From contig JARGFH010000008.1 in NCBI GenBank assembly GCA_029210695.1, positions 33,327 to 97,326 of the forward strand: 64,000 nt of DNA, read 5' to 3'. Below, piece after piece: positions 38,733 to 64,000 of this stretch (the stretch's first letter is position 1; every line of letters starts with the position of its first letter). The translations under genes and the position numbers were made by a program. Origin of the DNA: Acidimicrobiia bacterium (GTDB lineage Bacteria; Actinomycetota; Acidimicrobiia; Spongiisociales; JAHEDJ01). The notes under the pieces are model-generated. The model was not told where the DNA came from and did no database searches. It saw only the letters and a program-made list of their open reading frames with translations.

Positions 38733-38739
38733 GCTGCTC

Positions 38740-42382: not shown

Positions 42383-42383
42383 C

Positions 42384-47940: not shown

Positions 47941-49536
47941 ATGGATGATATGTCGAACACGCCACCGGACCCGGAAGACCAAGACGCACTTGAGGTGCCG
48001 GAGGCCGAATCCACCGGTTCCGCCGACGATGATTACACCATTCAATCGTTGTACGGCCATCCGCTGGCGGCGCTGGGCGGGGCAATCATGCTGGCCGGCA
48101 TCCTGGTCTTCATCGTGCTGCTCGGTCTCGACTACCTCTCGGAGACCGAGAACCCCTATCGGTCACTCGTCGCCTTCATCGGGGCGCCCGCGATCGGGTT
48201 CCTCGGCCTGCTCCTGTTCCTGATTGCCATCCGCGTTCAGGTCTCCTCGGCCAAGCGGCACGGTCAGCACATCCGCTGGCGGTTGACGATCATCCCGTCG
48301 AGCGCCCGCTATATGCGCAACTTGTGGCTGTTCCTGGGCCTCAGCGCCGCGCTTGTCATCATCTTCATCTATGCAGGGTTCAGGGGGTACGAGGCCACCG
48401 AGTCCGTGGCATTCTGCGGAGAGACCTGCCATACAGTGATGGGTCCGCAGATCGAGACCTACGGCGACTCTGCCCACGCCCGGGTGCCGTGTGTCGAATG
48501 CCATATCGGCCCGGGTACCTCATTCTGGGTGCAGTCGAAGATCGACGGTATCCGGCAGGTTGTGGCCGTCGCACGGAACTCCTACACCCGGCCGATCCAC
48601 ACGCCGGTGGTGAGCCTCCGGCCTGCTCCAGAGACGTGTGAGCAGTGTCACTGGCCGGAGCAGTTCTACGGCCAGAAGTTGCAGACGAAGCAGTACTACC
48701 GGACCGACGAACAGAACTCGCCGTGGACCATTTCCCTCCTCGTCAACATCGGGGGTGGCAACCCGCAGACGGGCCGGGCCGAAGGCATCCACTGGCACAT
48801 GGTCACCGACAGCGTGGTCGAGTACATCGCGGTGGATGAGAAGCGTCAGGACATCCCGTGGTTCCGGGTGACCAAGCCGGATGGGTCCGTGCAGGTGTAT
48901 GCCGATCCGACCGCCACGTATCCCGATCCCAACAGCGTGCTCACTGAGAAACGGGTCATGGACTGTGTCGATTGCCACAACCGCCCGAGCCACAAGTTCA
49001 CTCCTCCCGCAGTGTCGGTCAACCTCGCTTTGTCGAAGGGCGAGATCTCCGGCGACCTTCCGTTCATCCGTGCAGTGAGTGTCGACCTGCTCAACGCCGA
49101 ATACGCAACGCTCGACGAGGCGTTGGCCGGCATCCCGGCCGGCTTGCGGGAGTACTACGAACAGCAGTATCCCGGGCGGGTCGCAGAACTGACTGAGGAC
49201 ATCGACCAGGCGATCACTGTGCTTCTCGGGATCTACCAGGCCAACTTCTTCCCTGAGATGAACACCGACTACCGGGCGCGGGAGAACAACCTCAGCCACT
49301 TCGTCAACGACGGGTGCTTCCGGTGCCACGGCGGTGACCAGGTCAACGAGGTCGGCGAACCGCTCTCGGCCACCTGCGACAGCTGTCATGAGATCATCGC
49401 GCAGGGCCCGTCTGCGGATCTCAACGAGTTGCAGAACGACATCGCCGGTGTGGACTTCGTTCACCCGCTCGAGATCGGCGACATCTGGGAAACGGTGAAG
49501 TGCACGCAGTGCCACACCCGGGAGTCCGGCTACTAG
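47941..49536 (+). CDS. membrane NapC/NirT-like heptahaem cytochrome c
   Basis: A 531-residue protein with three N-terminal membrane segments (about residues 41-65, 71-95, 119-142) and an extracytoplasmic domain with seven haem sites: FCGETCH (CX3CH) and six CXXCH (CVECH, CEQCH, CVDCH, CFRCH, CDSCH, CTQCH). The FCGxxCHxxM start of the haem domain is typical of NapC-like quinol dehydrogenases. Expected role: oxidise menaquinol and pass electrons to other multihaem cytochromes outside the membrane. GAGGGG lies before the ATG. It stands alone and is followed by a repeat block. Confidence 0.9.
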   Translation: MDDMSNTPPDPEDQDALEVPEAESTGSADDDYTIQSLYGHPLAALGGAIMLAGILVFIVLLGLDYLSETENPYRSLVAFIGAPAIGFLGLLLFLIAIRVQVSSAKRHGQHIRWRLTIIPSSARYMRNLWLFLGLSAALVIIFIYAGFRGYEATESVAFCGETCHTVMGPQIETYGDSAHARVPCVECHIGPGTSFWVQSKIDGIRQVVAVARNSYTRPIHTPVVSLRPAPETCEQCHWPEQFYGQKLQTKQYYRTDEQNSPWTISLLVNIGGGNPQTGRAEGIHWHMVTDSVVEYIAVDEKRQDIPWFRVTKPDGSVQVYADPTATYPDPNSVLTEKRVMDCVDCHNRPSHKFTPPAVSVNLALSKGEISGDLPFIRAVSVDLLNAEYATLDEALAGIPAGLREYYEQQYPGRVAELTEDIDQAITVLLGIYQANFFPEMNTDYRARENNLSHFVNDGCFRCHGGDQVNEVGEPLSATCDSCHEIIAQGPSADLNELQNDIAGVDFVHPLEIGDIWETVKCTQCHTRESGY

Positions 49537-50099: not shown

Positions 50100-51608
50100 T
50101 TACGGCGCGCCGGCCCCGATCCACTCCTTGAACGTCGCCAGCTCCGCAGCAGTGAAGGCACCCGGATGGCCTCCGGCCTCCTGGACGGTGATGAGCGTGC
50201 TCCCGGCGGCGTCGCCGGGAAGGATCGCATCGCCGCTGGCCAGCGCATTCGAGAGCGAGGACAGATCCACGCCACCGAGGGCCACCGTGTCGGAGTGGCA
50301 GGCGCCACACCGCAGAGCGGCCGTCGCTCCGATTCCACCGTCCCAACTCAGTGCTGCGGTCGGCGTTGCGCCGTCACCGGCGGCTCCGGAGTCGATCCAC
50401 GCAGTGACCAGGGCCAGATCTCCGGCGGTCAATTGGCCGGGATGTCCTCCGGCCTCCTGGACCGTCACCAGGGAACTGGCAGCGGCGTCACCGGTGACAA
50501 CAACTCCCTCGGAACCCAGCGCCCCCTCGTATGACGAGAGGTCGAGTCCGCCCATTGAGTTCGAGGCTGAGTGGCAGGTACCACAGTTATCGGCCAGTAG
50601 GGGTCCAACCGTCGCCCATGTGACTTCGCCCTGCGGCACCGTGGTCTCGGTGGGGAGGGTGGTGTCGGGGATGACGATGGTCGGGAGCGGGTTGTCTTCA
50701 GAGAGCGCCGGTCCGCTCGGGTTCTGGAACTCAGGTGGCAGCGGTTTGAAGGCCACTACGTCTTCGATGGGCTCGATGGTGGCGATAGACGTATCTTCGA
50801 AGCTCACGAACCAGTAGATGCCGGCCATCATGAGGACCGCCACAACGCCGAAGGCGAGCAGGAACTTGCGCCGCCGCTCAGCCATCTGGGCCGGGGTCGC
50901 CTGCGGACCGGACTTGCCTGCCTCTATGGCCTCGAGTTCCAGGCCGTGTTCTTCGATCATCTCTACCCGGCTGATGTAGCCGGTGAAGATGCTCCTGTTG
51001 AAGTGCTTGATGTGCACGTGGTAGATGTGCCAGACGAGGATGGCCAGCACTGCCAGGATCGCCTCTCCACCGTGAGCTGCTTTGGCGGCCGGGATGAAAT
51101 CGCCGGGGAGGAACTTGGCGGTGGAAATCGGATTCCACAGCATGTAGCCGGTGGCGATCATCAACACGGTGCCCCAGACGAACGACCAGTACTCGACTTT
51201 CTCCGCGAATGTGAACCGACCTTGTTTCACCGGTTCGTGCCGCCGTCCCGCCAGCAGCGCGACCGATTCTTTGATGGCAATCCAGTCGCGCTTGCTCGGG
51301 ACCATGGCCCGTGGCCGCCGTTCGACGTACGTGCGATATCCGGCTTTTCCAAAGTGCCAGATGACGGCGAGCATGAGGATGGTCGCCAGCCACCGATGAA
51401 TAACGCGCACTTGCGGCAACCCACCGAGGAACCCGATCCACCACTGAGAGATGGCCGACTCGAAGAACTTCTGGATAAGTCCGGTGAGGCCGAGGCCGGC
51501 GAAGCTGATTACCTGGACGGCATGCTCGATGCGATCCGCTTTTCCAAAACGCAGTATCCGGTCATCCGCTTGGACGTCCGCTGCTTGGCGCTCGAGGACG
51601 TCAGACAC
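50100..51608 (-). CDS. diheme cytochrome b (FdnI/HydC-like) fused to two C-terminal cytochrome c domains
   Basis: A 502-residue protein. Residues ~15-260 form four membrane helices with paired histidines (ADRIEHAVQ, VIHRWLA...IWHFGK, KAAHGGEA...VWHIYHVHI), the di-haem b pattern of formate dehydrogenase gamma subunits. A fifth helix (about 280-300) is followed by two c-type domains of ~85 residues, each with CXXCH (CGTCHS, CGACHS), GGxDLSS, VQEAGGHPG and WIxxGA, an internal duplication. With the 9-haem partner upstream (8-nt overlap) it resembles a split CbcL. GTG at 51608 chosen; a start at 51650 is possible. Confidence 0.85.
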   Translation of the reverse strand: MSDVLERQAADVQADDRILRFGKADRIEHAVQVISFAGLGLTGLIQKFFESAISQWWIGFLGGLPQVRVIHRWLATILMLAVIWHFGKAGYRTYVERRPRAMVPSKRDWIAIKESVALLAGRRHEPVKQGRFTFAEKVEYWSFVWGTVLMIATGYMLWNPISTAKFLPGDFIPAAKAAHGGEAILAVLAILVWHIYHVHIKHFNRSIFTGYISRVEMIEEHGLELEAIEAGKSGPQATPAQMAERRRKFLLAFGVVAVLMMAGIYWFVSFEDTSIATIEPIEDVVAFKPLPPEFQNPSGPALSEDNPLPTIVIPDTTLPTETTVPQGEVTWATVGPLLADNCGTCHSASNSMGGLDLSSYEGALGSEGVVVTGDAAASSLVTVQEAGGHPGQLTAGDLALVTAWIDSGAAGDGATPTAALSWDGGIGATAALRCGACHSDTVALGGVDLSSLSNALASGDAILPGDAAGSTLITVQEAGGHPGAFTAAELATFKEWIGAGAP

Positions 51609-52710
51609 TCGCGGCCGCCTTCCGTCGATGCTGCAGATGGCGAATGCCATCGATCGTCACCCAGACCAGCATGCCCCCTACGACGCCGGGGATGACGAGT
51701 CGGTAGAACCAGTTGACCAGCCAGACAAAAATCGCCTGGTCGGCGGTTGGTTGGTAGTGCTTCATCCACGAGTCAGGGAAGTTGGCGGTGGCGTCGGGGT
51801 GGCACCGCTGACAGGTGAGGAGCAGGTTCTCCTTGTAGACAGTCGAGTCGACCGAGTCGGCGGCCAGGATGTTGTGCACGCCGTGGCAGTCGATACAGAC
51901 CGGCGAATTGGTCTTCTGGTCGGGCGCCAGTTCCTCGAAGAGCATGACAGTCGTGCCGTGGAAATCGGCCACATAGGTGTCGAAGACGGCCGTGCTGATC
52001 CCGTACTTGCCCATGAGGGCTTCGTCCGCGTGGCAGTCCTCGCAGATTTTCGGTGAGAACAAGTGGAACTGCGAGTGCGAAGGTCCTTCAACACTGTGGA
52101 CACCGTGACAACTCGTGCAGCTCGGAACGTCCTGATTGTCGTGTTCGAGCAGGGCGGCGCCGTGGATGCTGCCGGCATACAGGTCGTAGATTTCCGAGTG
52201 GCAGTTCCGGCAAGTGCGGGGGATGGCCGTCGTGTCGGCGCTCGGGTGAGTCACGTTGTGGGCGCCGTGGCAGTCAGTGCAGACGGCTGCTTCCCGGTTG
52301 CCGCCGGCCAGTGCCTCGGTGTGCATGTTGTCGAGCGTGTCGGTGTATTCGCTCTGATGGCAGTTGAAACACGTGGTGTACAACTCAATGGCGAGGTCAC
52401 GACGGGTGACGGCCGACATCGGATCGTGGGGGTATTGCCCGATATCGGTATGACAGGCAATGCAGGTGAGGCCGGCCTGACCGTGAATCGAGGCGTCAAA
52501 GACGGTGCGCGGCACCACGGCGGGAAGCATCTCACCCGACGGGAACGACAGAATGATGTTCCCGGATTTGTGGCATCCTAGGCAGTAATTGTTGACTTCC
52601 GAGTCGGCGGAGTCCTGCGCTGAGGCCAAGTCCGCCGAGAGGGCAGTGAATCCGATGACGGCAATGAACAGCATCCCCCACAGAGCGAACCGTTGCAGCT
52701 TGGTGCGCAT
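51601..52710 (-). CDS. membrane-tethered nonahaem cytochrome c
   Basis: A 369-residue protein: signal peptide (ends near ASA-QDSAD), nine CXXCH motifs (CLGCH, CIACH, CFNCH, CTDCH, CRNCH, CTSCH, CEDCH, CIDCH, CQRCH) with many CHGxH pairings, then a C-terminal membrane helix (VWLVNWFYRLVIPGVVGGMLVWV) and short basic tail. The haem domain would face outward. It overlaps the cytochrome b gene and together they would carry about nine c haems plus two b haems, like the quinol oxidase CbcL. GGAGAG precedes the ATG. An ISL3 element lies 119 bp upstream. Confidence 0.9.
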   Translation of the reverse strand: MRTKLQRFALWGMLFIAVIGFTALSADLASAQDSADSEVNNYCLGCHKSGNIILSFPSGEMLPAVVPRTVFDASIHGQAGLTCIACHTDIGQYPHDPMSAVTRRDLAIELYTTCFNCHQSEYTDTLDNMHTEALAGGNREAAVCTDCHGAHNVTHPSADTTAIPRTCRNCHSEIYDLYAGSIHGAALLEHDNQDVPSCTSCHGVHSVEGPSHSQFHLFSPKICEDCHADEALMGKYGISTAVFDTYVADFHGTTVMLFEELAPDQKTNSPVCIDCHGVHNILAADSVDSTVYKENLLLTCQRCHPDATANFPDSWMKHYQPTADQAIFVWLVNWFYRLVIPGVVGGMLVWVTIDGIRHLQHRRKAAASV

Positions 52711-52852: not shown

Positions 52853-54112
52853 TCAGTGGGGTGTGCTGGTTGCGAGTAGGTCCCAGTTGGGTTTTCCGGC
52901 GTAGAGGAGGGTTCGGATCCGGTAGTTGCGGAAGTTGGTGATCCTGAACGCCATCCGCTTGACGCGCTTGAGGAGGTTGTTGACCGCTTCGGTTGGTCCG
53001 TTCGACACCCGAGCCCGGTGCCAAGCCACGATCTGATCCTTCCACCGGGCGATGGTGCGGCCGAGGGAACGCACCTCGAGGGGCATCGTCCGGTCTCCGA
53101 GGTCGTCGATGAGCTGGTCGACGAGCTCACAGGCGAGGTCGTGATCGTCGAAGTGGTAGATGGACCGGATGGTCTCTTTGGCATGCCAGGTCATCTGCAC
53201 CTCACCCCGAGGGTCGCCCGCCTTGAGCAGACCGGTCAGTTTCAGCTCGCCGGCTTGGTCGAGCCGCTCATGGGCTTTGGTCAACAACCGCCGTGCCCGA
53301 TACAACGGGTCGTCTTTTCTGCCTCGATGCCCGACGGTCTCGTTCTGGACTCGGCGGCGGCACTCGTCCAGCTTCGAGTTGGCGAGGCGTACAAGGTGGA
53401 ACGGGTCGGCCACCTGGACAGCGTCGGGAAGCATCACATCGAACACTTTCCGGTACGGTCCCGACAAGTCCAACGTCGCCCACCGGATCCGGCCCCGCCA
53501 CTCGCCTGTCTGCTTCTCGAGCCATTCGATCGGACCCGAAGCGGCGCGGCCGGCCACCACATCGAGCAACTGGCCGGCTTCCACGTCGACGATCTGAGTG
53601 GTCCACTCCTGGCGGCGCCATTCCCCGACACGGCACCGCAACGTCTCATCCAACCCCAGGGCCGACACGTCTCCGAACCGTGCCGGGTCGTCGACCAGGG
53701 CTTGACCGTAGGCAGCGACGGCGTCCATCACCGGATGCCAGCCGCAGCCCAGATCCTTGGCCACCTCCGTGACTGATCGGCCATGACGACCCACCTGCAC
53801 CGTCGCCCACCGGCCCGCCCGATCCGTCAACTTCAACCGGGATGCGGCGATTGCCGGTGCCTGCTCGGTGAACGACCCGCACCTCAACGGGCATGCCCAG
53901 CGGATCTTGCGCCACGCCAACACCGTCGGCCGTCCGAAACAGGGCAGATCCGTCAACTCGACCATGTTCCGATCGTTCACCGTCACCGCCGACCCACAGG
54001 CGGGACACGACGGACGTTCTCCTCTGGTCTCGACCATCACTCGAAGATGGGTGTCGGCATCGGTCACCTCCAACACGTTGACGGCGGGCAACCCCACCAG
54101 CAGCTCGCACAT
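52853..54112 (-). CDS. ISL3-family transposase
   Basis: DDE transposase of 419 residues. An N-terminal zinc-binding part (CPACGSAV...CPLRCG), a helix-turn-helix-like segment (VTEVAKDLGCGWHPVMDAVAAYG) and the catalytic core are intact: ALGLDETLRC (first Asp), VQVADPFHLVRLAN (second Asp) and SNGPTEAVNNLLKRVKR (Glu), ending with the family signature AFRITNFRNYRIRTLLY. The ATG at 54112 is preferred; a GTG at 54133 would add seven residues. It appears undamaged and may be active. Confidence 0.93.
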   Translation of the reverse strand: MCELLVGLPAVNVLEVTDADTHLRVMVETRGERPSCPACGSAVTVNDRNMVELTDLPCFGRPTVLAWRKIRWACPLRCGSFTEQAPAIAASRLKLTDRAGRWATVQVGRHGRSVTEVAKDLGCGWHPVMDAVAAYGQALVDDPARFGDVSALGLDETLRCRVGEWRRQEWTTQIVDVEAGQLLDVVAGRAASGPIEWLEKQTGEWRGRIRWATLDLSGPYRKVFDVMLPDAVQVADPFHLVRLANSKLDECRRRVQNETVGHRGRKDDPLYRARRLLTKAHERLDQAGELKLTGLLKAGDPRGEVQMTWHAKETIRSIYHFDDHDLACELVDQLIDDLGDRTMPLEVRSLGRTIARWKDQIVAWHRARVSNGPTEAVNNLLKRVKRMAFRITNFRNYRIRTLLYAGKPNWDLLATSTPH

Positions 54113-54132
54113 GGCAATAGCATCACACGACA

Positions 54133-54187
54133 CAGGGACTCCCGAATCTCGAAGGCCTAAAACACCTCCAGATTCGTCGAGTCCCTG
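54133..54187 (-). promoter_or_regulatory. long hairpin in the transposase leader
   Basis: CAGGGACTC(CC)GAATCT pairs with AGATTCgtcGAGTCCCTG across about 20 nt, just upstream of the transposase start and inside the right end of the IS. Such hairpins often limit transposase expression from read-through transcripts. Confidence 0.6.
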
Positions 54188-54263: not shown

Positions 54264-55454
54264 TCAGCCCTCGGGTGGTTGGTAAGTCCTCGCGTAGGCC
54301 GCCTGCTCCAGGTCGTTGGCAGACGGCAGTGGCGTCGCAACGGTGAAGAGCACGACACGGTTGTTCTCGCGGTCGGCCAGCGCGAACGACCCATCCGGGG
54401 CCACGGCGAGCTTCTCGGGGAAGTTGAGAGATGTCTCCGCGATGCCGGCCGCACCGAACTCCGAAATCAGCTCCCCATCTGGGTTGAGAACAACGATGTG
54501 TCCGGCGCCGGAGCACTTGTCTTGTGCTCTGAAGGTGTCCACCACGTAGAGATTTCCGTCGGATCCGATGGCGATTCCTCGCGGAAGTTGCCAGAAGCTG
54601 ACGATTTCTCCATCGACGTCACGCTCACCGGAGATCCACAGGACTTCGCCCGTCTCGTCGAGGGCGACTATGCGGCGGTTGAGCGTGTCGGCAACGTAGA
54701 ACGTGCCGGTCTCCTCATCAATTGTGAATGCGTCGGGGAAAGCGAATTCCCCGGCCCCGGACCCCCTGGCGTCGCCTCCCCAGCGGTCGACAACGTGGCC
54801 CGATCGATCGAAGAAGTAGAGCCCGTCGTTGCTGGCGGCCACGATCTGGTCTTTCCACACGCGTACCTCGTAGGGGGAGAACCCGTCCGGTCCAAAGACG
54901 TCGAAATCCTGGTCTACTGCCGGGAAGGTCTCGATGTATCTGCCGTCAGCTGAATAGATCAAGATCGCTCGAAGCGCCCAATCGGCGACGTACAACCTCT
55001 GCTGATCCGCGGAAAACGCCATGCTGTAGGGTCCCCATAGTTTGCCGGGGCCTTCGTCCGCTCCGATGACGTTGATGAGCTCCTTCTCGGGTCCGAATAC
55101 GAGAATTCTGCCGTTACCGGTGTCGGCCACGAGCACATTCCCGTTCACATCGAACTGTGTCGCTAGGGGTTGGAGCAGTAACTCGTCGGCACCCGACCCG
55201 AATCCGATGATGGTTTTCTCGAATACCATTGGACAGTCGGCTGGGAGCGCCAGGTTTCCTGCATCGGAATCCGGACGCAATATCCAGATCAGCGTTATTG
55301 CCAGGATACCCGCCGCGATTACGAGCAATACGATGAGGCCCAGCAGCATCCTTCTTCCGCGGCGATCGGCTTCAACAGGCTCGGTTCCTCCCGTTGAGGT
55401 TGGGGGTGGTGGGCCGGGGGTTGTGCCTGGGCCTTGAGGTGGGTTTGCTTCCAT
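54264..55454 (-). CDS. membrane-anchored NHL-repeat beta-propeller protein
   Basis: A 396-residue protein with a Pro-rich cytoplasmic N-terminus, one membrane helix (about residues 36-59) and an extracytoplasmic NHL/six-bladed propeller (repeats such as DVNGNVLVADTGNGRILVFGPE, YVADTLNRRIVALDETGE, SDGNLYVVDTF). It has no haem site. Last gene in the cytochrome operon before the IS. NHL proteins accompany multihaem cytochromes in metal-reducing bacteria, probably as assembly or docking factors; its exact role is inferred. GGAG is 6 nt before the ATG. Confidence 0.88.
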   Translation of the reverse strand: MEANPPQGPGTTPGPPPPTSTGGTEPVEADRRGRRMLLGLIVLLVIAAGILAITLIWILRPDSDAGNLALPADCPMVFEKTIIGFGSGADELLLQPLATQFDVNGNVLVADTGNGRILVFGPEKELINVIGADEGPGKLWGPYSMAFSADQQRLYVADWALRAILIYSADGRYIETFPAVDQDFDVFGPDGFSPYEVRVWKDQIVAASNDGLYFFDRSGHVVDRWGGDARGSGAGEFAFPDAFTIDEETGTFYVADTLNRRIVALDETGEVLWISGERDVDGEIVSFWQLPRGIAIGSDGNLYVVDTFRAQDKCSGAGHIVVLNPDGELISEFGAAGIAETSLNFPEKLAVAPDGSFALADRENNRVVLFTVATPLPSANDLEQAAYARTYQPPEG

Positions 55455-55462: not shown

Positions 55463-56119
55463 CTATGGTGTCGTGGCAGCGGCACCGAGCCTGGCGAGCG
55501 CATCGCGGATGTCGGTGTTTGTGGGGTTGAAGGCTGACGCTTGTTCGTATGCGGCGATTGCACTATCGATCTCGCCCTGCGCCTCCAGCGCTCTACCGAG
55601 CCCGAAGTGCGCGTCTGAGACGAAACGATTGTCCGCGATGGCCTCTTGGAAAGCCTCCTGGGCTTCCGTGGGCCGATCCATCTCGAGCAGCAGGTCGCCG
55701 AGAGCGATGAACGGCAGCGCCTTGTTTTCTCGCGGAGCGTATTCGGCCGACCGGGTGAGCATCTCGGTTGCCCTGTTTTGATCTTCCCTCCTCACCATGA
55801 CAGCGAGGTCCAGTAGTGCCGACCACTGGTTGGGGTCGATTTCCAGTGCGCGCTCGAGTGTTTGCCGAGCTTCTTCGGCTTCGCCGTTTCGGAGCAGTGC
55901 ATTTCCGAGGCCGGCGAGAGCCCAGGCGGCACCAGGGTTTTTATCAACGGTGTCGCGCCAGGATGTAATCTCGAGGGCGGTCATCGTCTCCGGTACGGGA
56001 TCGGGGCGGAGCTGTAGAAAGACGATCGCGCCTCCCAGACCGGTCACGACGATCATCAGGACAACCACGATGGTCAGAAGACCAGTCGGGATCGGCTGCG
56101 CTCTCTTACTTCCAGTCAT
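55463..56119 (-). CDS. membrane-anchored TPR protein
   Basis: A 218-residue protein: one N-terminal membrane helix (LLTIVVVLMIVVTGLGGAIVFL) and four to five TPR motifs outside (GAAWALAGLGNALLRNGEAEEARQTLERALEIDPN; GDLLLEMDRPTEAQEAFQEAIAD; GLGRALEAQGEIDSAIAAYEQASAFNP). It resembles the CcmH/NrfG type of TPR protein in cytochrome c maturation, though it lacks the CcmH thiol domain. Overlaps the PPIase-like gene by 14 bases and precedes the NHL gene by 8 nt. Confidence 0.88.
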   Translation of the reverse strand: MTGSKRAQPIPTGLLTIVVVLMIVVTGLGGAIVFLQLRPDPVPETMTALEITSWRDTVDKNPGAAWALAGLGNALLRNGEAEEARQTLERALEIDPNQWSALLDLAVMVRREDQNRATEMLTRSAEYAPRENKALPFIALGDLLLEMDRPTEAQEAFQEAIADNRFVSDAHFGLGRALEAQGEIDSAIAAYEQASAFNPTNTDIRDALARLGAAATTP

Positions 56120-56765
56120 CTGCCAATACCTCTACTTCGACTTCGTCCCGTCGGGTTTCCAGCCAGTCTACGAATGCGGCTTCTTGCATGTCTCCAGTTA
56201 GTTCATCCATCAAGGAGTTCCTCACCTCGATGAAGGGGAGCGTGCCACCAGAGTCTTTGAACTGGTCGGGGTTCGCGTTGTAGTAGGCCTCGGCATTTTC
56301 CTCGGTTGCCTCGATGCCTTCAGTGATCGCCCGGTACACCCGTGACGAGGACTCCTGGAGGTACAAACGGCGGCGTGCCTCCTGCTCGTCGATTCCGTTT
56401 TGAGCCAGCCAGGCTTCCCACTCGTCGCCGCCGCCGATGGCAGCGCGTAGATCGTCTAGTGCTTGGTCAACATCGCCATCGGAGACGGCTACGCCTCGCT
56501 CTTCGGCTTCAATCTCTACGATGATGTCGTCGGTGAGCGTCCGAAGCACAACGACCCGCCAATCCTCGCCAAGCGCTACCTCGATATCGCCCCCGTGTAA
56601 TTGCGCGATGCCTGCAATGCGAGAATCCGCCACCGATTCGTAGACAGGACGGCCATCCACTGTGGCGATGATCGGCCCGGCGGGTTCAGACGATTCACAT
56701 GCCGGGGCAGTGATAGCCAAGACCGCGAGGAAAAGAGCACTCCCGGTGTTGCGGCGCAGCTTCAT
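56106..56765 (-). CDS. SurA/PrsA-like peptidyl-prolyl isomerase-type lipoprotein (chaperone domain only)
   Basis: A 219-residue exported protein with a signal sequence and lipobox-like TAPAC. The body matches the SurA N-terminal chaperone domain (ATVDGRPVYESVADSRI..., VLRTLTDDIIVEIEAEERGVAVSDGDVDQALDDLR, ITEGIEATEENAEAYYNANPDQF, PFIEVRNSLMDEL). The parvulin catalytic domain between the ATEENAEAYY and PFIEVR parts is missing, so it is probably a chaperone without isomerase activity. Start ATG at 56765 with GGAGGT 8 nt upstream; it overlaps the cytochrome stop by 4 bases. Confidence 0.8.
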   Translation of the reverse strand: MKLRRNTGSALFLAVLAITAPACESSEPAGPIIATVDGRPVYESVADSRIAGIAQLHGGDIEVALGEDWRVVVLRTLTDDIIVEIEAEERGVAVSDGDVDQALDDLRAAIGGGDEWEAWLAQNGIDEQEARRRLYLQESSSRVYRAITEGIEATEENAEAYYNANPDQFKDSGGTLPFIEVRNSLMDELTGDMQEAAFVDWLETRRDEVEVEVLADDWK

Positions 56766-57598
56766 CCTGATGTACCTCCGATGGGTAGTGGTCGTGAGCG
56801 GGGTCGAACTCCGGCGTGACAAGCGTCCGAGCAATAGGTCGCTGTGTGGCAGGTGCCACAGTTGTTGGCACCTCCTTCATCTACATCGGCGCCGTGGGTT
56901 GCGTTCCAGCCGTCCGGGTGGTTGATGTCATGACAGTTCGCGCAGGTTGAGGCGCTATGGCAAGCGGTGCAGGAGTCGCGATCGGTCCCGTCAAACGACC
57001 CCGGTAAAATGAGGCTGTGATCCTGCCCGGGATGGAACGAATCGGGAAGGTGACAGGTGCCGCAGTCGACGTAGCCACCACGAGGTATGGCGAAGTCGTA
57101 GTAGTGGGGCAATGACCCGGGCACATGGCAGTACTGGCACTGGCTCTCCGACGCAACTTGTGTATGGCATTCGGCGCACACTCGCTCTGGGGGTGCCAGC
57201 GGGTTCGGGTGTGTCAGATCTGTGTGACAGGCTTCGCAAGTGAGACCGGCTTCCGCATGGGTGGGATGGTTGAAGTACAAATCGCTGGACCGAACGTTCG
57301 TCCAGTAGTTCTCGTGGCAGTCGGCGCACTCAGAGAACTCCGATGGCACCGCGGCTTCTGCTGTCGGCTGTTGCCAGACTGGCAGAACCCAGCGATCGAT
57401 GGACTGGTCCGCTTCATCGACGAACCGCGAGAGGAGGCCGGGCCGTTCGTCGCTGCCTGCCCACAGCACGACCACGTCTTCAGCAAATCGTCCAAGGCCG
57501 TCCCTCGCATCGGGTGAGACGAGCACCGCTCCGACAATTGCACCTTCGATAATGAAGAGGCTGATGACAGACGCGACGATCAGGGTGAATCTGTTCAC
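56762..57598 (-). CDS. membrane-anchored nonahaem cytochrome c
   Basis: A 278-residue protein with an N-terminal membrane helix (RFTLIVASVISLFIIEGAIVGAVLV), an ~80-residue linker and a dense haem domain: CADCH, CEACH, CAECH, CQYCH, CGTCH, CTACH, CANCH, CGTCH and a final CSDACH (CX3CH). About one haem per 17 residues in the second half suggests a wire-like chain. It contains the CANCHDINHPDGWNATHG module shared with the two upstream proteins. Start GTG overlaps the upstream stop (GTGA). Confidence 0.87.
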   Translation of the reverse strand: MNRFTLIVASVISLFIIEGAIVGAVLVSPDARDGLGRFAEDVVVLWAGSDERPGLLSRFVDEADQSIDRWVLPVWQQPTAEAAVPSEFSECADCHENYWTNVRSSDLYFNHPTHAEAGLTCEACHTDLTHPNPLAPPERVCAECHTQVASESQCQYCHVPGSLPHYYDFAIPRGGYVDCGTCHLPDSFHPGQDHSLILPGSFDGTDRDSCTACHSASTCANCHDINHPDGWNATHGADVDEGGANNCGTCHTATYCSDACHAGVRPRSRPLPIGGTSG

Positions 57599-58623
57599 GG
57601 CACTATGTCCCAGTCGTAGAGCCGTTGCTCGGTGTGCACCGAGTGTTTGACATGGCAGACACTGCAGTCGCGGATGGAATGGCACGTGGCGCAAGCCGAC
57701 GCTTGAGGCGTTTCCACCGACCGGAAGTGCAGCCCAACCCAGTTTTCCGGATGCGGTATTTCGGTCCCGTGGCAGCCTGCGCAGAAGGAGGGCGCATGAC
57801 ACGACGTACAGCTGGCGCCGCGATCTCCGATGCTCTCCGGCCCGTGCATCGTGGTCCAGTCTCCCGGGTGCGGATAGGTCGCTCCGACGTGACACGCCGA
57901 GCAGAAGTCTGAGGCGTGGCAATCGACACACGCGGTCGGTTCGGCGACGGCGTCGCGGCCGTGGGTGAACGAGTAGTCGGCTGGATGCGGATCCCCTGGA
58001 CGGGAAACGGCTGCGGTCGTACCCGGATGAGCGACCTGGCCGTGGCAAGCGTCGCAGGCAGCATCTGGTCCCGGATGCCCGGCGGCCACCAGTTCAGAAC
58101 TCGCCGCTATCTCGATGTGACACTCACTGCATGCCCCCGGGGCGAGAACCCCCTGTGCGGTGGGTAGCCGAGTGACTTGCTGGGCGGCTTCCCTGATCAG
58201 AGTCGGTACGTAGACCAGGCCGCCGAGGAGACCGTGGGTCGTACCGTGACATGCGAGGCAGGCGACATCAGCATGAATGGATTGGCCATGACTCGTTGCG
58301 GCCGACTCGGCAGTGTGGCACGAACCACAGAACGCCCGTGAGGAACCTGGATAGGTGGTTGTGAAGCCGATCGCAAGCGCGAATAGAGCTGCCACTCCAA
58401 GCACCCAGAGAAGCCATCTGCGCGGTCCGTCGGATGCTCCCTCGAGCTCGCGCGGTAGCTTCCTTCGATCGGGAAAGTCGGTCGACGGCGGAGTCTGGCT
58501 GTTTCCATCCGGTGGCTCGGGAGGGTCTGGAGGCGATGGATCGCTCTGCGACGGCGGTGGCGGTTCGACACCGTTGCCGCGGAATGCCTCCGGAGGCCCC
58601 TCGCCGGGCGGCTCGAAGGTCAT
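57595..58623 (-). CDS. membrane-anchored decahaem cytochrome c
   Basis: A 342-residue protein: a Pro-rich cytoplasmic N-terminus (~70 residues), one membrane helix (WLLWVLGVAALFALAIGF) and ten CXXCH sites (CGSCH, CLACH, CSECH, CDACH, CVDCH, CSACH, CTSCH, CAGCH, CATCH, CSVCH). Two CxxCH...PHPxxWxxxHG modules occur (FCSACHVGATYPHPGDW, FCAGCHGTEIPHPENW). The first haem pair after the helix (FCGSCH ... CLACHG) resembles a NrfH/NapC start. GGGGAG precedes the ATG, which overlaps the upstream stop. Confidence 0.88.
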   Translation of the reverse strand: MTFEPPGEGPPEAFRGNGVEPPPPSQSDPSPPDPPEPPDGNSQTPPSTDFPDRRKLPRELEGASDGPRRWLLWVLGVAALFALAIGFTTTYPGSSRAFCGSCHTAESAATSHGQSIHADVACLACHGTTHGLLGGLVYVPTLIREAAQQVTRLPTAQGVLAPGACSECHIEIAASSELVAAGHPGPDAACDACHGQVAHPGTTAAVSRPGDPHPADYSFTHGRDAVAEPTACVDCHASDFCSACHVGATYPHPGDWTTMHGPESIGDRGASCTSCHAPSFCAGCHGTEIPHPENWVGLHFRSVETPQASACATCHSIRDCSVCHVKHSVHTEQRLYDWDIVP

Positions 58624-59522
58624 GGTCGCTCCCCTGGTTCTTCGTTCCCAGAGGTGTCGCCATCGAGGGTCGAATCTGCCTCGCCTGTGGTTTCGGCTGG
58701 TGGCGCGAGGCGTCGAAGGTCGGCTGAGTAATCCTCTACACCCCGTGTGTGGCAAGAAACGCAGGTGTTGGGATCGTGGCACTCGAAACAGCCGGCACCA
58801 CCGTCGGTTCGCACAACCTCAGGATGAGCCTCTCTCCAGACCGGAACGTCGGGGTTCTGCGGGTGGTGGCAGGCGTCGCACTCATCACGAGTGGTCAGAT
58901 CTGGTCCGCGCTCGTGACAGCTCATACACGATTCGATGCTCGAGTCGAACGTAGCCCGCGCATGCGGATATCCCGCCCATCCGTCGTCGTGCGGTATGTC
59001 GACACCATGGCACGCCGTACAGAAATCTTGTCGCGAGTGGCAAGTCTCGCACAGCGACTGGCTGATCAGGGCGCCAGAGCCGTGAACGTCCCGCCACTCT
59101 GCAGTGAAGTGGCTCTGGGGCGGAGGCACAGTGGCATTGTCGTGGCACCGGAGGCACGGCAGCTCGAGAGCCGGCCCGGCGTCTAGGTGGCACGAAAAGC
59201 AATCCTCCATGTTCGGTGTCAGCGGGGGAGTGCGATCGTGCGTATCGAGACCATGGCAATTGCCGCAACCGACGTCACCAGAAGTCGAGAAGTGCTCTTC
59301 GTGTCGAAATCCGATGAGTTGCACCAGTCCGGCTTGCAGGGAGTGCTCGATGTCATCGTGGCATTCGAGGCACGCGTCGAAGTCGGAATCCGCCGCCACG
59401 GCGGCGGCTGCAATCGGGATCAGCGGTGGGTCGTTTGCCGGATCGTCCGTCAACTGCCAGGCGACCAACGCAACAACGGTGAGGAGTCCGCCGAGCGCAA
59501 AGGGCCGTGGTCGTCGTCTCAT
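58620..59522 (-). CDS. membrane-anchored decahaem cytochrome c
   Basis: A 300-residue protein with an N-terminal anchor (PFALGGLLTVVALVAWQL) and ten CXXCH sites (CLECH, CGNCH, CFSCH, CLRCH, CETCH, CTACH, CMSCH, CDACH, CFECH, CVSCH). It carries the FCTACHGVDIPHDDGW module shared with its neighbours, pointing to duplication within the operon. The ATG at 59522 is used; a GTG at 59531 would add three residues. First cytochrome after the Rrf2 gene. Confidence 0.88.
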   Translation of the reverse strand: MRRRPRPFALGGLLTVVALVAWQLTDDPANDPPLIPIAAAAVAADSDFDACLECHDDIEHSLQAGLVQLIGFRHEEHFSTSGDVGCGNCHGLDTHDRTPPLTPNMEDCFSCHLDAGPALELPCLRCHDNATVPPPQSHFTAEWRDVHGSGALISQSLCETCHSRQDFCTACHGVDIPHDDGWAGYPHARATFDSSIESCMSCHERGPDLTTRDECDACHHPQNPDVPVWREAHPEVVRTDGGAGCFECHDPNTCVSCHTRGVEDYSADLRRLAPPAETTGEADSTLDGDTSGNEEPGERP

Positions 59523-59583
59523 CGCGACCACCCGGCGAGATGGGGTGCGCTGCAGGCTGCGATGGTCCCCAAGTAATCCACGC

Positions 59584-60009
59584 CTACTCCTCTTGGACGA
59601 ACGGGCGGAGAGGGATGTGGCCGCCGTTTAGTAATGTGTCGTAGGTCACCGAGAAGACCCGCCTCAGCTCGTCGAAGGCGTCCTCGCAGACGGGTCGGAT
59701 CGGACAGTCGGCTGCGGTGTCACAGGTTTCGGGATGCTCGCAGCAGATGTTGACGAAGAGTGGGCCTTGCACGGCCTCTATGACGTTGAGCAGGCTGATC
59801 TCGCTTGGATCGCGCGCAAGATCGATCCCGCCGTTGACTCCTCGTCTGGTGGTGAGTATGCCCGCTTTCGACACGGCCGCCACGATGCGCCCGAGGATCG
59901 ATGGGGGTATCCCGGCCCGTTCCGCGACTGCTCCGGTGGAGGTGTGCCCGGTGCGGGCTACGTCGAGAACACAGCGCACGGCATAGTCGACCTCGCGGGT
60001 GATCAACAC
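59584..60009 (-). CDS. Rrf2-family regulator with cysteine cluster
   Basis: A 141-residue winged-helix regulator: EVDYAVRCVLDVARTG and ERAGIPPSILGRIVAAVSKAGILTTRRGVNGGIDLARDP form the Rrf2 DNA-binding domain. The effector loop contains Cys89, 90, 96, 102 and 108 (ICCEHPETCDTAADCPIRPVC), more than the three cysteines of IscR/NsrR, suggesting an Fe-S cluster sensing iron, NO or redox state. GTG at 60009 has AGAGGGGG upstream. It heads the cytochrome run, so those genes are likely targets. Confidence 0.88.
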   Translation of the reverse strand: MLITREVDYAVRCVLDVARTGHTSTGAVAERAGIPPSILGRIVAAVSKAGILTTRRGVNGGIDLARDPSEISLLNVIEAVQGPLFVNICCEHPETCDTAADCPIRPVCEDAFDELRRVFSVTYDTLLNGGHIPLRPFVQEE

Positions 60010-60193
60010 CGTGGGCCCCCTCTCGACCACTCACGGCATTCACAAACCATTGCGGACCCTCGCCTCTCTCCCATGTGGCCCAACCCGCGGCTCCTGACAG
60101 CCATCCCGGGTCCAACCGCGACGGTACTCGCAGTCAACTGGCGTCCTGTAGGGCCCAATGGCATTCGCGGGGGGATGGAGGTCGGGTCTGTCA

Positions 60194-61696
60194 TCAGAAC
60201 CGCGTCGATCCGTGATTGTGGCACTGTGTGCAGAGCCTGTTGGGTGTGTGGTGGTCGCCGTGGCAGCTGCCACAGAAGTCAGAGAGGATTGCCTGCTGTT
60301 CTGGGGTGTCCTCATCGATGAATCCGGTAACCCGTGGGCCGACGGTGCCGGCGGGCACACCTGCCTGTCCGGGGCTGATCACATACTCGCGCAACAGGTA
60401 TGAGTTCGAGGAGCCATGCGGGTCGTGGCAGGCGGTGCAGGCGAGTTGGGCGCCCGCACCGTGGTCCGACCGTTCGTTGGTGAAATAGTACGTGGCGTCG
60501 AACGTGTCGTGGGGTCCGCCGCTCCCGTTCAGCACGGCTGAGTCGTTGGTGAGCCGCACGTCGTAGGGGACCCAGGTGCCGGCGTTGATTGGAGCGGTCG
60601 TGGTCGGGTCCTGGTGACACGCAACGCAAAACTGCGATATGGTGCCCCGGGTGAACGTGCCGTCCGTCCAGGTGATGGCGACGTCGCCTCGGGTGTCTCC
60701 CGGATTCGAGATCTTGCTCCCAGTTGCTGAGTACTCACGGTCAACCCGATGAGCGTTGTGACATGACGCGCACTCGACCTCACGGCTACCAACGTCTTGT
60801 TCATGGTCGCCGATGGGGTGGTGGTAGATGCGAATCAAGCCGTCGGCGTCGGTGGGGTCGTAGTCGTTGGCTGCCGCCGTGAAGGCGTACTCGAGGTCGG
60901 TGGTGTCGAAGGGAAGATCGGGGTTGGTGTTGGGCGTTGCCGTGTTGTGGCAGGTGAAGCAGGTGGCCTCTTGTTGGGAGAGGCCCGGGTAGGCCGAGCC
61001 ATGGCCGTTGTGGCAGTTCACGCACTGGATGCCCGATCCCGAGGGAGGATCGCCCCCGAGCATTTGGTGAACGCCTCCGTCAAACGCAGTCTGATCGCCA
61101 AACGGAGCGGGGAATGGAGAGGCGGCACCGTGGCACCGGTAGCAGTAGGTGTTGCCAATCGGAGTGCCGACCGGCGAGTAGACCCAGCCACCGGAACCAT
61201 CGTTGATGCGCAGGAGTTTCGTGAACTCGGATCGAGCCTGATGTGGCGTGTGGCAGTCGCCACACGTGACCGAGTATCCGTCGAGCGCGTGGGGGAGGGG
61301 ATGATACGAAGGTTGGGTGCTCTCCCCCAGATTCGACTCGCCGAACTCTGCGCGGATGTCGGACGTCGATCCACTCCCGTCGTGGCATCGGTAGCAGGCT
61401 TCCTTTTCGGTGGCGGTTGCCAGCAATGTGGTTCCGGCGGCATTGTGGACGTCGTGGCAGGAGAGACACCCGTTCGTGGCGGCGCTGAGGAGACCGTGAG
61501 GGTCCGGGAACTCAACTGCCTGAGCCACCGCGAGGATCGCAAAGGGCATTGAAGTTGCTGCCGTGTCCGCGCGTTGGTCCGGTCCGGCCGCAGCCGGCAA
61601 GAATGTAAGGGCACCGAACACAACGCTCAGCGTGGTCGCAAGAGCGATCCGCCGCCATTGTGCGCCCGGTACTCGAAACCTGACGAGTTTGGTCAA
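60194..61696 (-). CDS. secreted undecahaem cytochrome c (doubled CXXCH type)
   Basis: A 500-residue protein with a signal peptide (ending near LPAAAG) and eleven CXXCH motifs (CLSCH, CYRCH, CGDCH, CYRCH, CVNCH, CFTCH, CASCH, CVACH, CTACH, CGSCH, CTQCH), many as CHDVHN, CHTPHQ, CHNGHG, CHDPHG pairs in which the second His can ligate a neighbouring haem. No membrane anchor at the C-terminus. The start is TTG at 61696 with GGAGG 4 nt upstream; no better start is visible. Divergent from the hexahaem gene. Confidence 0.88.
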   Translation of the reverse strand: MTKLVRFRVPGAQWRRIALATTLSVVFGALTFLPAAAGPDQRADTAATSMPFAILAVAQAVEFPDPHGLLSAATNGCLSCHDVHNAAGTTLLATATEKEACYRCHDGSGSTSDIRAEFGESNLGESTQPSYHPLPHALDGYSVTCGDCHTPHQARSEFTKLLRINDGSGGWVYSPVGTPIGNTYCYRCHGAASPFPAPFGDQTAFDGGVHQMLGGDPPSGSGIQCVNCHNGHGSAYPGLSQQEATCFTCHNTATPNTNPDLPFDTTDLEYAFTAAANDYDPTDADGLIRIYHHPIGDHEQDVGSREVECASCHNAHRVDREYSATGSKISNPGDTRGDVAITWTDGTFTRGTISQFCVACHQDPTTTAPINAGTWVPYDVRLTNDSAVLNGSGGPHDTFDATYYFTNERSDHGAGAQLACTACHDPHGSSNSYLLREYVISPGQAGVPAGTVGPRVTGFIDEDTPEQQAILSDFCGSCHGDHHTPNRLCTQCHNHGSTRF

Positions 61697-61775
61697 ATAT
61701 CCTCCGCCACCCTAAGAGTAAATCATACCTATTTCGGGCGATTTCGGTAGTGCGATGCGCCCCGTTGATGGGGCC

Positions 61776-61803
61776 GAATGGCCCTGTCGCGATAGGGCCA
61801 TTC
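61776..61803. promoter_or_regulatory. 10-bp inverted repeat in the divergent cytochrome promoter region
   Basis: GAATGGCCCT-N8-AGGGCCATTC, a perfect 10-bp stem about 80 bp upstream of the TTG of the undecahaem gene and 210 bp upstream of the hexahaem gene. It could be a regulator site or a transcript hairpin. Confidence 0.45.
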
Positions 61804-61869
61804 CTCAACTTGACGCTGTGTCGGGAAACACATAGAGTGATGAATGAGCCAAGTGCTATCGGCATATTT

Positions 61870-62000
61870 GACCTAAAAGGTCTGATTACGTCGAGGTTAG
61901 GGATTACGCATCGCCAGGCTTCTTGGCGGCATCGCGATGCGGGTTGCGAGAAACAGAAGGGGAGCATGCAGCTCCCATGAGTCGGGTTCCGAACCCGACA
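61870..62000 (+). promoter_or_regulatory. structured 5' leader of the hexahaem cytochrome gene
   Basis: Four successive hairpins precede the SD: GACCT-AAA-AGGTC (61870-61882), GCATCGC...GCGATGC enclosing CGCCA...TGGCG (61908-61940), GGGAGC-N5-GCTCCC (61960-61976) and GTCGGGTT-CCG-AACCCGAC (61981-61999). A four-codon reading frame (ATG at 61966, stop 61978) lies in the third. The 317-bp divergent gap holds nothing else obvious. It does not match a riboswitch class I know. Confidence 0.5.
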
Positions 62001-62013
62001 GGGAGGAGGGCGA

Positions 62014-63144
62014 ATGAGACGGCGATTCAGAACCGTCGGACTCGTTGTGTGTGTAATGGCTGCGATGTTGGTCCCGGTAACGGGGGCGATGGCGCAGGAT
62101 GCGAGCAATGTTGGTGATCCAGCTGCCGGGGCAGTTGATCCGCATGGTGGGTACTCGTCGACTACGCAGTTCTGTCTGCAATGTCATGACGTCCATAATG
62201 CAAACGGATCGTACGGTCTCATGGGGGCAGTCAGTGTGACAGCCGTCTGTCAGACTTGCCATGCGTTGCCGAGGTTGGGTGGAGGCGGAGTAACGGTTCC
62301 GAGCCACAATCCAACGCCAAATCTCAACCCCGACGGGTCGGTCAAGACACTCGGTACGACGTCGTCGTTCAGTGCCTACGACCTAACGGGTGGGGTGGGC
62401 GAAGAGCACACGATCGGTGCTACAGACATTGACGGCAACCCGATGACGCAGTCTGCCTACCAATACCGTGGACGGTTCCTCGGAACCGATTCTGCCGTTG
62501 CGGCGGGTGCGGGCACTGCAGGTGAGTACGCCGGCGGTCTTTACTGCGCCAGTTGCCACACGGCACACGGCGAGTACGGCCAGGTTGTGAATGATCCGGT
62601 CGAACCGACGGCAACCAGTCCTGGCGACGAGGGTGTGCACTTCTATCAGGGGAATACGCAACTCTGGTTGGACTACTCCGGCGACGCGACAAACCCGAAT
62701 GCCGACTGGTTCGCATGTGAAGCCGCGGCCGATGTAATGATTGGCACCGGCGTCGGCACCGCCTGTGCGAAGCGATTCGACGCGCTGACGATCAACGATG
62801 AAGAGGGCAAGCCCTCTTCGCTGTTCGGCTACAAGCTGCTGTCGTCATATCCGAATCACACATGGGGGAGCAAGTCGAGCTTCAAGTTCGACAACCACGC
62901 GCATGATGTATCGGTGTGGTGCTCAAAGTGCCATGATTCGAAGTCGATCGATACTGCGGGCATTCACAATCACCCGACGGGCTGCCTGGCTTGCCACGGC
63001 AACCCTTCGGATGTCGACTCGCGAGGTCGATTCACTGTTGCGACGGCCTTCGACTTCCCGCATACGTCGCCAAATGCGGCCTTCCTGCGGGCGTTGCCTG
63101 ACGCACTCTGCATCAGCTGCCACACGAGGGGAAGCCTGCCGTAG
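62014..63144 (+). CDS. secreted hexahaem cytochrome c, OmcS-like haem layout
   Basis: A 376-residue exported protein (signal peptide to about residue 27, AMA-QDAS) with six CXXCH motifs at residues 54, 79, 178, 303, 324 and 366, and at least a dozen extra histidines for bis-His ligation. The number, spacing (two near the N-terminus, one mid-protein, two around 300-330, one at the C-terminus) and contexts (CHDVHN, CHTAHGEY, GCLACH then RGRF, LCISCHTRG at the end) resemble the Geobacter nanowire cytochrome OmcS. Cys235 and Cys251 may form a disulfide. GGGAGGAGGG precedes the ATG and a strong terminator follows, so it is a single-gene unit. Confidence 0.88.
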   Translation: MRRRFRTVGLVVCVMAAMLVPVTGAMAQDASNVGDPAAGAVDPHGGYSSTTQFCLQCHDVHNANGSYGLMGAVSVTAVCQTCHALPRLGGGGVTVPSHNPTPNLNPDGSVKTLGTTSSFSAYDLTGGVGEEHTIGATDIDGNPMTQSAYQYRGRFLGTDSAVAAGAGTAGEYAGGLYCASCHTAHGEYGQVVNDPVEPTATSPGDEGVHFYQGNTQLWLDYSGDATNPNADWFACEAAADVMIGTGVGTACAKRFDALTINDEEGKPSSLFGYKLLSSYPNHTWGSKSSFKFDNHAHDVSVWCSKCHDSKSIDTAGIHNHPTGCLACHGNPSDVDSRGRFTVATAFDFPHTSPNAAFLRALPDALCISCHTRGSLP

Positions 63145-63170
63145 ACGACCTGTAACTTACCGACTACCCG

Positions 63171-63198
63171 AAGTGGGGAGCCGAAAGGCTCCCCACTT
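63171..63198 (+). terminator. strong hairpin terminator with GAAA loop
   Basis: AAGTGGGGAGCC-GAAA-GGCTCCCCACTT, a perfect 12-bp stem with a GNRA tetraloop, followed by CTCTGTCC. It lies 26 nt after the hexahaem cytochrome stop. Confidence 0.88.
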
Positions 63199-63296
63199 CT
63201 CTGTCCCACCCCAAACCCCTTCTTGCGTCACTTCTGGGCGTATAGCGCCCGTGGCTTCAGGTGGTGTGGGCGACGGGGTGGCTTTGGAGGTGGGTT

Positions 63297-63533
63297 GTGG
63301 GCCGTCCCAAGATTCCGTGGTTGGTGGCGCGTGAGGCGTTGTTGGCGATAGGCAGGGGTGCAACGATTGATCAGGCTGCTGTGGTGGCTGGTGTGTCACC
63401 GCGGGCGGTTGATCAGCTGGTCAGCGAGCATGGCCGCATGTTGCATTTGGAAGGTCATAAACCGCGGGCTGATGTGTTGACGGTGGGAGAACGTGAAGTT
63501 ACGTCCATTGACGTGGTGTACGGGAGGGTCTGA
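63297..63533 (+). pseudogene. truncated transposase N-terminus (IS30/IS481-like)
   Basis: A 78-residue fragment starting GTG with GGAGGTG upstream. VGRPKIPWLVAREALLAIGRGATIDQAAVVAGVSPRAVDQ resembles the N-terminal helix-turn-helix region of IS30-like transposases, and the frame stops where the conserved catalytic part should begin. No matching remainder follows, so it is a remnant. Confidence 0.55.
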
Positions 63534-63604
63534 GGGTCCTTCCTTATCGGTGTTCACCGCGTCAGCCTCACGAACACGTGCAAGCGAGCGTGAGGAGTAA
63601 CGCG

Positions 63605-63930
63605 GTGATCAATAAAAGCATGGACGCGTTGGTGTGGCTGCGCAAGCAGCTCGAGACCGGCGACAACGACTTGCTGCGTGAGATGGTGCGCAGCTTCGCC
63701 GAGGAGTTGATGGGAACCGAAGCGGATGTGGTGTGCGGTGCCGGCTACGGGGAGGTCTCGGTGGACCGGGTCAATAGCTGCGGACTGGTTCGTATTTCCC
63801 GGACTGGCTCCTGGATGCGAGGACCCGTTCGGAGCGGGCGTTCATCCAAGTCGTCTCGGAAGCCTACGTTCGGGGCGTTTCCACTCGCAGGGTCGAAGGG
63901 CTGGTGGAGGCGTTGGGGATCACGTTGACG
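63605..63930 (+). pseudogene. broken IS256-family transposase
   Basis: The frame from GTG 63605 reads MDALVWLRKQLETGDNDLLREMVRSFAEEL...ADVVCGAGYGEVSVDRVN, the IS256 N-terminus. After an internal deletion the next conserved block (YFPDWLLDARTRSERAFIQV ... GVSTRRVEGLVEALGIT) continues in another frame until about 63930, where similarity ends at the IS21-like sequence. Not functional. Confidence 0.8.
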
Positions 63931-63937
63931 CCGCTCG

Positions 63938-64000
63938 CTGAAATTCCCCAGGGTTGCTCATCGAAATTCCTCACCTTGGGTTGGGTTTGGATGCTAGTTG
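63938..64000. mobile_element. possible end of an IS21-like element, cut by window edge
   Basis: CTGAAATTCCCCAG at about 63939 and GAAATTCCTCACC at 63963 are short direct repeats of the kind found at IS21-family termini. The sequence interrupts the IS256 remnant. The rest lies outside the window. Confidence 0.4.

Follow-up and report, generated by a model that had tools for sequence, protein, structure and literature searches.

A predicted OmcS-like hexahaem cytochrome and its neighbouring gene cassette in an Acidimicrobiia bacterium

The hexahaem gene

We examined a 64,000-nucleotide stretch of DNA (hereafter the window) from an Acidimicrobiia bacterium (assembly GCA_029210695.1, contig JARGFH010000008.1, positions 33,327 to 97,326 of the forward strand), near the end of which lies an open reading frame (ORF) for a hexahaem cytochrome, here called HEXA (P0001 in our searches). 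An earlier, sequence-only reading had likened this protein to OmcS of Geobacter sulfurreducens (PDB 6ef8/6nef) and proposed it as a nanowire subunit. The gene and its features are as follows.

62014..63144, + strand: HEXA, hexahaem cytochrome, predicted filament subunit (376-aa ORF)
62014..62097, + strand: predicted signal peptide, codons 1-28, ending AMA/QD (hydrophobic N-terminus)
62173..62187, + strand: CXXCH 1 (CLQCH, residue 54), followed by His61 (CXXCHxxH), which aligns to OmcS His16
62248..62262, + strand: CXXCH 2 (residue 79)
62407..62409, + strand: His132, candidate distal ligand, kept in 73/73 family rows
62545..62559, + strand: CXXCH 3 (CASCH, residue 178), followed by His185, which aligns to OmcS His147
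62857..62859, + strand: His282, candidate distal ligand, kept in 70/73 rows
62920..62934, + strand: CXXCH 4 (residue 303)
62971-62973, + strand: His320, after CXXCH 4, aligned to OmcS His257 in 19/20 alignments
62983..62997, + strand: CXXCH 5 (CLACH, residue 324), lacking the CXXCHxxH histidine that OmcS haem 5 has
63061..63063, + strand: His350 (DFPHTS), candidate distal ligand, kept in 73/73 rows
63109..63123, + strand: CXXCH 6 (residue 366), the last motif, just before the conserved C-terminus GSLP
63170..63199, + strand: perfect 13-bp hairpin 3' of HEXA, without a T-run

All six CXXCH motifs previously listed (residues 54, 79, 178, 303, 324 and 366) were confirmed in the ORF, and 20,000 shuffles of the protein gave a mean of 0.027 such motifs and a maximum of 2. 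The signal peptide and the lack of a membrane anchor were likewise borne out as predictions, given a hydrophobic N-terminus followed by AMA/QD (A27 is nearly invariant across the family) and no second transmembrane (TM)-like stretch; HEXA thus shares with the OmcS family six CXXCH motifs in an anchorless protein whose export is read from its N-terminus. The OmcS-like two-one-(gap)-two-one spacing claimed for the motifs was wrong in its second half, with gaps of 25, 99, 125, 21 and 42 residues in HEXA versus 38, 93, 99, 89 and 72 in OmcS. The segment GGAGGAGG lies at 62002-62009, 5' of the ATG, and HEXA (+) and its neighbour at 60194-61696 (-) are divergently oriented. Of the strong terminator described beforehand, the hairpin at 63170-63199 is indeed strong (-31.9 kcal/mol, z -6.1), but it has no T-run and was not among the calls of the terminator scan.

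A family with conserved histidines

A single-sequence search recovered 35 relatives besides the query, and a profile search 107 proteins, query included. We aligned 73 of the 111 proteins from both searches, leaving out 38, of which 26 were the most distant (P0086-P0111) and 12 were fused, fragmentary or long. Six CXXCH motifs occur in 64 of these rows, five in four, four in four and seven in one. Outside the motifs, six further histidines are kept, namely His61 (72/73; the remaining row has a gap there), His132 (73/73), His185 (73/73), His282 (70/73), His320 (70/73) and His350 (73/73), just enough to give each of six haems bis-histidine ligation. His44 (PHGGYS) is kept in 65/73 rows.

The attribution to an actinobacterium is based here on how relatives are labelled: 17 of 21 named loci carry an actinobacterial label (Actinobacteria, Actinomycetes, Actinomycetota, Thermoleophilia or Coriobacteriaceae), one is labelled Acidobacteria and three plain bacterium. 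Other labels among protein records were a Gammaproteobacteria metagenome-assembled genome (MAG) for P0013 and P0020 and Clostridiales for P0065. Among 99 genomes near the host, matches were found in four with the single sequence and in five with the profile (G092, the additional one, matching only in part). Two of five genus genomes encode the hexahaem, and the three without it (one 56% complete) also lack the 11-haem neighbour described below. No HEXA match was found in plasmids, nor in a first scan of genome contigs with the single protein. In the literature, the family was undescribed in the titles and abstract openings found, a full-text coverage that is thin for subscription journals.

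Giant proteins of 1369-1373 aa in three loci (L017:14093-18211, L018:6689-10795 and L019:4266-8381) carry six family-matching CXXCH motifs at their C-terminal end, and the same loci also hold normal-sized hexahaem, TPR and NHL genes; in the one giant scanned, that of L017, NosD/beta-helix and immunoglobulin (Ig)-like domains precede the haems. At L032 (G007:C81), the hexahaem is split into two frames of 239 and 152 aa beside an 819-aa 11-haem ORF, through a frameshift or an assembly error.

Similarity to OmcS

We compared the family with OmcS at the level of profiles. The 73-row profile matched a 40-row OmcS-family profile at 97.9% (E 4.5e-13, score 99.0), with residues 50-323 aligned to OmcS 5-260 and haems 1 to 4 in order. 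Decoys in which OmcS columns were shuffled with all CXXCH motifs kept reached at most 49.9 (n = 100), and those also keeping the CXXCHxxH histidines at most 68.9 (n = 100); the hidden Markov model comparison suggested earlier therefore came out in favour of kinship, above both decoy maxima. HEXA alone matched the OmcS profile at 91.1%, and 43 of the 73 family rows reach 90%.

This result is tempered by controls, for which we used 32 other multihaem proteins (26 distant profile-search hits and six window cytochromes). In single-sequence hhalign comparisons, aligned span separated the groups better than score: 26 of 40 OmcS-family singles spanned at least 115 columns, against one of the 23 controls with at least eight haems, whose spans were 23-94 columns except for P0099 (192). 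Two controls (P0108 and P0111) are OmcS-family proteins, recovered by a 27-row profile among 5.8 billion proteins, and five (P0086, P0088, P0093, P0101 and P0105) make up a third hexahaem group, the bridge group, which combines a PHG-[GN]-[YF] start as in the HEXA family with CXXCHxxH at haems 1, 3 and 5 as in OmcS. Four of its members match OmcS over 267-283 columns and P0088 over 37, while matches to the HEXA family cover 69-134 columns on the N-terminal side. Judged from these alignments, this group is the best bridge between OmcS and the HEXA family. Its members, intermediate between the two, have Pro/Thr-rich C-terminal tails of varying length.

When mixed subsets were aligned 20 times, the six CXXCH motifs always paired in order. 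The OmcS distal histidines (His16, 63, 110, 147, 257 and 335) were read from conservation in the OmcS-family alignment; His61 paired with His16 in 20/20 alignments, His185 with His147 in 20/20, His320 with His257 in 19/20 and His132 with His110 in 11/20. No OmcS histidine paired with His282 or His350, and OmcS His63 and His335 have no counterpart in HEXA. With a wider OmcS-like superfamily that includes the bridge group, the HEXA family shares a profile similarity that runs through several consecutive haems and is not confined to the motifs; single-sequence scores alone are not specific for it.

Searches of known structures were less clear. With phmmer, the only PDB match to HEXA was OmcE (7tfs; E 3.8e-4, local and piecewise), which differs from HEXA in having four haems and is described as sharing a four-haem core with OmcS (PMC9473688). 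The 27-row profile matched 17 PDB chains at E<=10, among which a glucose-dehydrogenase cytochrome subunit ranked first (1.1e-5), followed by OmcE (1.6e-4), 6r2q_A (1.8e-4) and OmcS (4.3e-4), a result that is ambiguous taken alone. Foldseek with the HEXA model returned 11 PDB matches, all of them with E above 0.001 and not one described as a cytochrome; VIA-align of the same model, over the 37 chains looked at, gave a weak structural match to OmcS. The predicted fold of a shorter relative (P0032) had a predicted local distance difference test (pLDDT) score of 45. No OmcS relatives were found in IMG/VR or plasmids.

HEXA, as far as its sequence tells, is an OmcS-like hexahaem cytochrome of a distinct, mainly actinobacterial family. 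The OmcS likeness thus stands as profile-level similarity with a weak structural match, but HEXA lies outside the OmcS family proper, with no single-sequence match and no CXXCHxxH histidine at haem 5. Features in common with OmcS and the OmcS/OmcT/OmcJ/OscC family are the count of six haems, the CXXCHxxH form of the first and third motifs, an H-P-[A/T]-G histidine that follows haem 4, a C-terminal last haem and a profile match over haems 1-4. Unlike OmcS, with which identity is 20-24% over aligned parts, it places haem 5 only 21 residues past haem 4, lacks His63 and His335, has the extra His282 and His350, and belongs to a family that keeps a PHGGYS start and an FPHTS...GSLP end.

The neighbouring cassette

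Upstream of HEXA lie further cytochrome genes and a small group of genes of folding and propeller type.

60194..61696, - strand: MHC11, 11-haem cytochrome, divergent neighbour of HEXA
59584..60030, - strand: Rrf2-type regulator
58620..59531, - strand: MHC10a, 10-haem cytochrome
57595..58782, - strand: MHC10b, 10-haem cytochrome, its haems preceded by a TM-like stretch; true start probably lower
56762..58048, - strand: MHC8, 8-haem cytochrome with a TM-like stretch; ORF start uncertain
56106..56834, - strand: SurA_N/rotamase-like, lipobox-like N-terminus, predicted prolyl isomerase/foldase (all Pfam matches sub-cut-off)
55463..56119, - strand: TPR-type protein, N-terminal TM-like stretch, assigned by BLAST cluster with relatives' TPR proteins (a relative scanned)
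54264..55454, - strand: NHL-repeat beta-propeller, N-terminal TM-like stretch
52853-54133, - strand: 426-aa ORF between the MHC9 and NHL genes
51601..52710, - strand: MHC9, 9-haem cytochrome, C-terminal TM-like stretch
47941..49536, + strand: NapC/NirT-type membrane 6-haem cytochrome, likely quinol-side entry

We compared the window proteins with 22 hexahaem loci (four fetched loci and 18 of the 21 named ones, the three omitted being short). An NHL homologue is present in 17 of them and absent from L009, L016, L020, L025 and L029; all of these but L029 are no longer than 11 kb. Five loci (L010 and L030-L033) have the isomerase-like gene, and in one relative (G014) the gene order is hexahaem, isomerase-like, NHL. 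A strong MHC11 homologue stands beside the hexahaem in four of the 22 (L009, L010, L030 = G001 and L032 = G007-C81), and ten loci have another small lipoprotein-like gene (cluster C3), with no Pfam match in the one member scanned. A longer, 803-aa MHC11 relative at L010:11124-13532 shows ZU5 and FlgD_ig-like matches ahead of its haems.

In its composition, the HEXA cassette may resemble the Geobacter osc system, with isomerase-like (sub-cut-off) and propeller genes beside the subunit gene. Shen et al. 2025 reportedly describe OscH as a prolyl isomerase and OscD as propeller-like. The osc (omcS companion) operon is described as combining OmcS-type hexahaems with genes for folding (OscH), secretion (OscE-G) and morphology (OscD) (PMC13194489, PMC12977616). 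We dropped an assignment of the Geobacter NHL gene to GSU2505, which a published table lists as hypothetical (PMC10599522).

Host envelope and haem maturation

In the 97.85% complete host genome, no Omp85 match was found by a search that was positive in 7 of 14 control genomes, and no ResB was found. CcmE and two Cytochrom_C_asm matches lie on contig 20, and of eight PF09699 (paired-CXXCH) matches in the genome, six are on the window's contig and two on contig 20. With no Omp85 match and with Ccm-type genes, the host is probably a monoderm that has the means to produce c-type cytochromes; the monoderm host assumed in the sequence-only reading is therefore supported. Elsewhere in the family, ResB-cluster genes occur in six loci with hexahaem, TPR and NHL genes (L012, L015, L017, L021, L023 and L026), five of which also have CcsA-cluster genes; the L026 members were confirmed by Pfam.

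A possible filament and its alternatives

The account that we place first, giving it roughly even chances, is that HEXA may polymerise end to end into an electron-carrying filament, as the conserved ligand positions (His61 at OmcS His16) and the neighbouring cassette suggest. HEXA would be loaded with haem by the host Ccm system (CcmE and the two Cytochrom_C_asm genes), exported across the single membrane, and folded and released by the neighbouring cassette, as in the osc system. Copies would stack head to tail outside the membrane, with His61 of each subunit ligating a haem of its neighbour to give one continuous haem chain, fed with electrons from the NapC-type and 8-11-haem cytochromes and delivering them to a solid acceptor outside the wall. 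The corresponding inter-subunit ligand of OmcS is, we assume, His16. Haem 5 of OmcS is described as ligated from the adjacent monomer (PMC7096707).

Several results weigh against polymerisation. With phmmer, HEXA found no OmcS in the PDB at E<=10, and the single-sequence hhalign scores of the 32 controls (35-141) overlapped those of the 40 OmcS-family singles (43-94), for which reason this score was dropped as proof of kinship. CXXCHxxH occurs in HEXA at haems 1 and 3 only, haem 5 reading CLACHGNP. This difference at haem 5, two distal histidines that also differ from OmcS, and the capacity of all six distal histidines to serve within one subunit would suit a cell-wall or surface hexahaem relay of OmcS ancestry, which as a monomer or short oligomer would link the 8-11-haem cytochromes to the outside, and to which the same OmcS homology evidence applies. 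We rank this relay second, as a real possibility that falls short of the polymer, given that His61 occupies the OmcS His16 position in every ungapped family row and that genes of the propeller and folding types, as named for OmcS filaments, adjoin HEXA.

An unlikely third account is that HEXA could be a terminal surface reductase, fed by its 11-haem neighbour and itself passing electrons to minerals or soluble acceptors. The MHC11 homologues beside the hexahaem in four loci and the giant versions, in which beta-helix and Ig-like domains precede the hexahaem part, would fit such a role; however, with as many conserved distal histidines as haems, a coordination site would be free only if one of these ligands were given up, and no catalytic-type family matched above cut-off. 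The nitrite/sulfite-reductase carrier named beforehand as an alternative, a periplasm-type soluble protein (NrfB/DmsE-like), is highly improbable, since the weak local NrfB- and DmsE-type matches in its favour reach 11-13% of curated cut-offs (nearest NCBIfam models: NrfB-type, 23.8 bits versus 184; another, 21.0 versus 192.2 bits) and span residues 294-373 or 54-84 only, and no such reductase turned up in a Pfam scan of 19 window ORFs, the only part of the window and genome searched for one.

A polymerising cytochrome would carry electrons out of a one-membrane, thick-walled cell without an outer-membrane conduit, and the family supplies loci for testing that exit route, which lie in MAGs with the labels Thermoleophilia, Coriobacteriaceae and other Actinomycetes. 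An OmcS-like wire has been proposed before for a Gram-positive (PMC7911101), and one OmcS homologue has been reported from an actinobacterial genome (PMC7399161). The former, the hexahaem CwcA (Tfer_0075) of Thermincola ferriacetica, is described as 18% identical to OmcS and is proposed to form a polymer spanning the wall, with an inter-subunit histidine (PMC7911101); OmcS-like and from a Gram-positive host, it is likened to HEXA by description. The latter, from Coriobacteriales MAG S27, is described as a six-CxxCH homologue with 28% identity to OmcS, found by plain BLASTP with OmcS (PMC7399161), and its likeness to HEXA (actinobacterial, six CxxCH) is again one of description.

Co-divergence of subunit and cassette

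We assessed how identity to a congener (G001) varies along the locus in 300-bp bins. DNA identity was 90-94% over 51.3-52.8 kb (MHC9), 48-68% over 54.3-58.8 kb (NHL, TPR-type, isomerase-like, MHC8 and MHC10b), and 82-94% over 58.8-61.8 kb (MHC10a, Rrf2 and MHC11). The bin that follows stands at 73% and the mature hexahaem (62.1-63.0 kb) at 51-54%, with a rise to 68% in the last 300 bp. A BLASTN block at 58717-62097 is 87% identical, its edge at 62097 being the end of the predicted signal peptide. Protein identities fall into the same two groups, high for MHC9 (96%), Rrf2 (96%), MHC11 (88%) and MHC10a (80%) and low for NHL (55%), TPR-type (46%), MHC10b (44%), MHC8 (42%), isomerase-like (41%) and hexahaem (40%). 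The window NHL is 60% identical to that of G007-C26 and 59% to that of G014, from another family, versus 54% to the congener.

Since the subunit and the cassette, two separate stretches, are diverged and the intervening DNA is not, we infer, as the simplest account, an exchange of matched alleles. The pattern comes from one genome pair; in a second pair (G007-C26/G014), the locus is about equally similar throughout, at 85-89% in long blocks. A 68-row tree (eight rows of alignment A2 dropped, three added) places both congeners on long branches in an unresolved fork and does not settle exchange versus fast evolution. Co-divergence of this kind points to specific subunit-assembly partners. More speculatively, and in our view doubtful, an OmcS-like nanowire might be an exchangeable module in Actinobacteria, with the subunit and its folding, secretion and propeller genes swapped together from congener to congener like a surface-antigen or pilus cassette while common electron-feeding cytochromes stay fixed, and with the giant N-terminally extended hexahaems as filament caps or adhesins.

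Other features of the window

The 426-aa ORF at 52853-54133, which looks like a transposase, has almost no counterpart in the congener and sits at the edge of the diverged block. Short broken reading frames lie at 63260-64000, at the contig end, and look like pieces of transposase genes. Between 50100 and 51650, a 516-aa ORF with two TM-like stretches and two CXXCH motifs looks like a membrane cytochrome fusion and is 98% identical to the congener over the 128 aa available. Not far from the cytochrome locus, a row of haem biosynthesis genes, taken as an operon, occupies 36454-46126 (GlutR, porphobilinogen deaminase, HemD, ALAD, URO-D, HemN-type, ferrochelatase and amine-oxidase-type).
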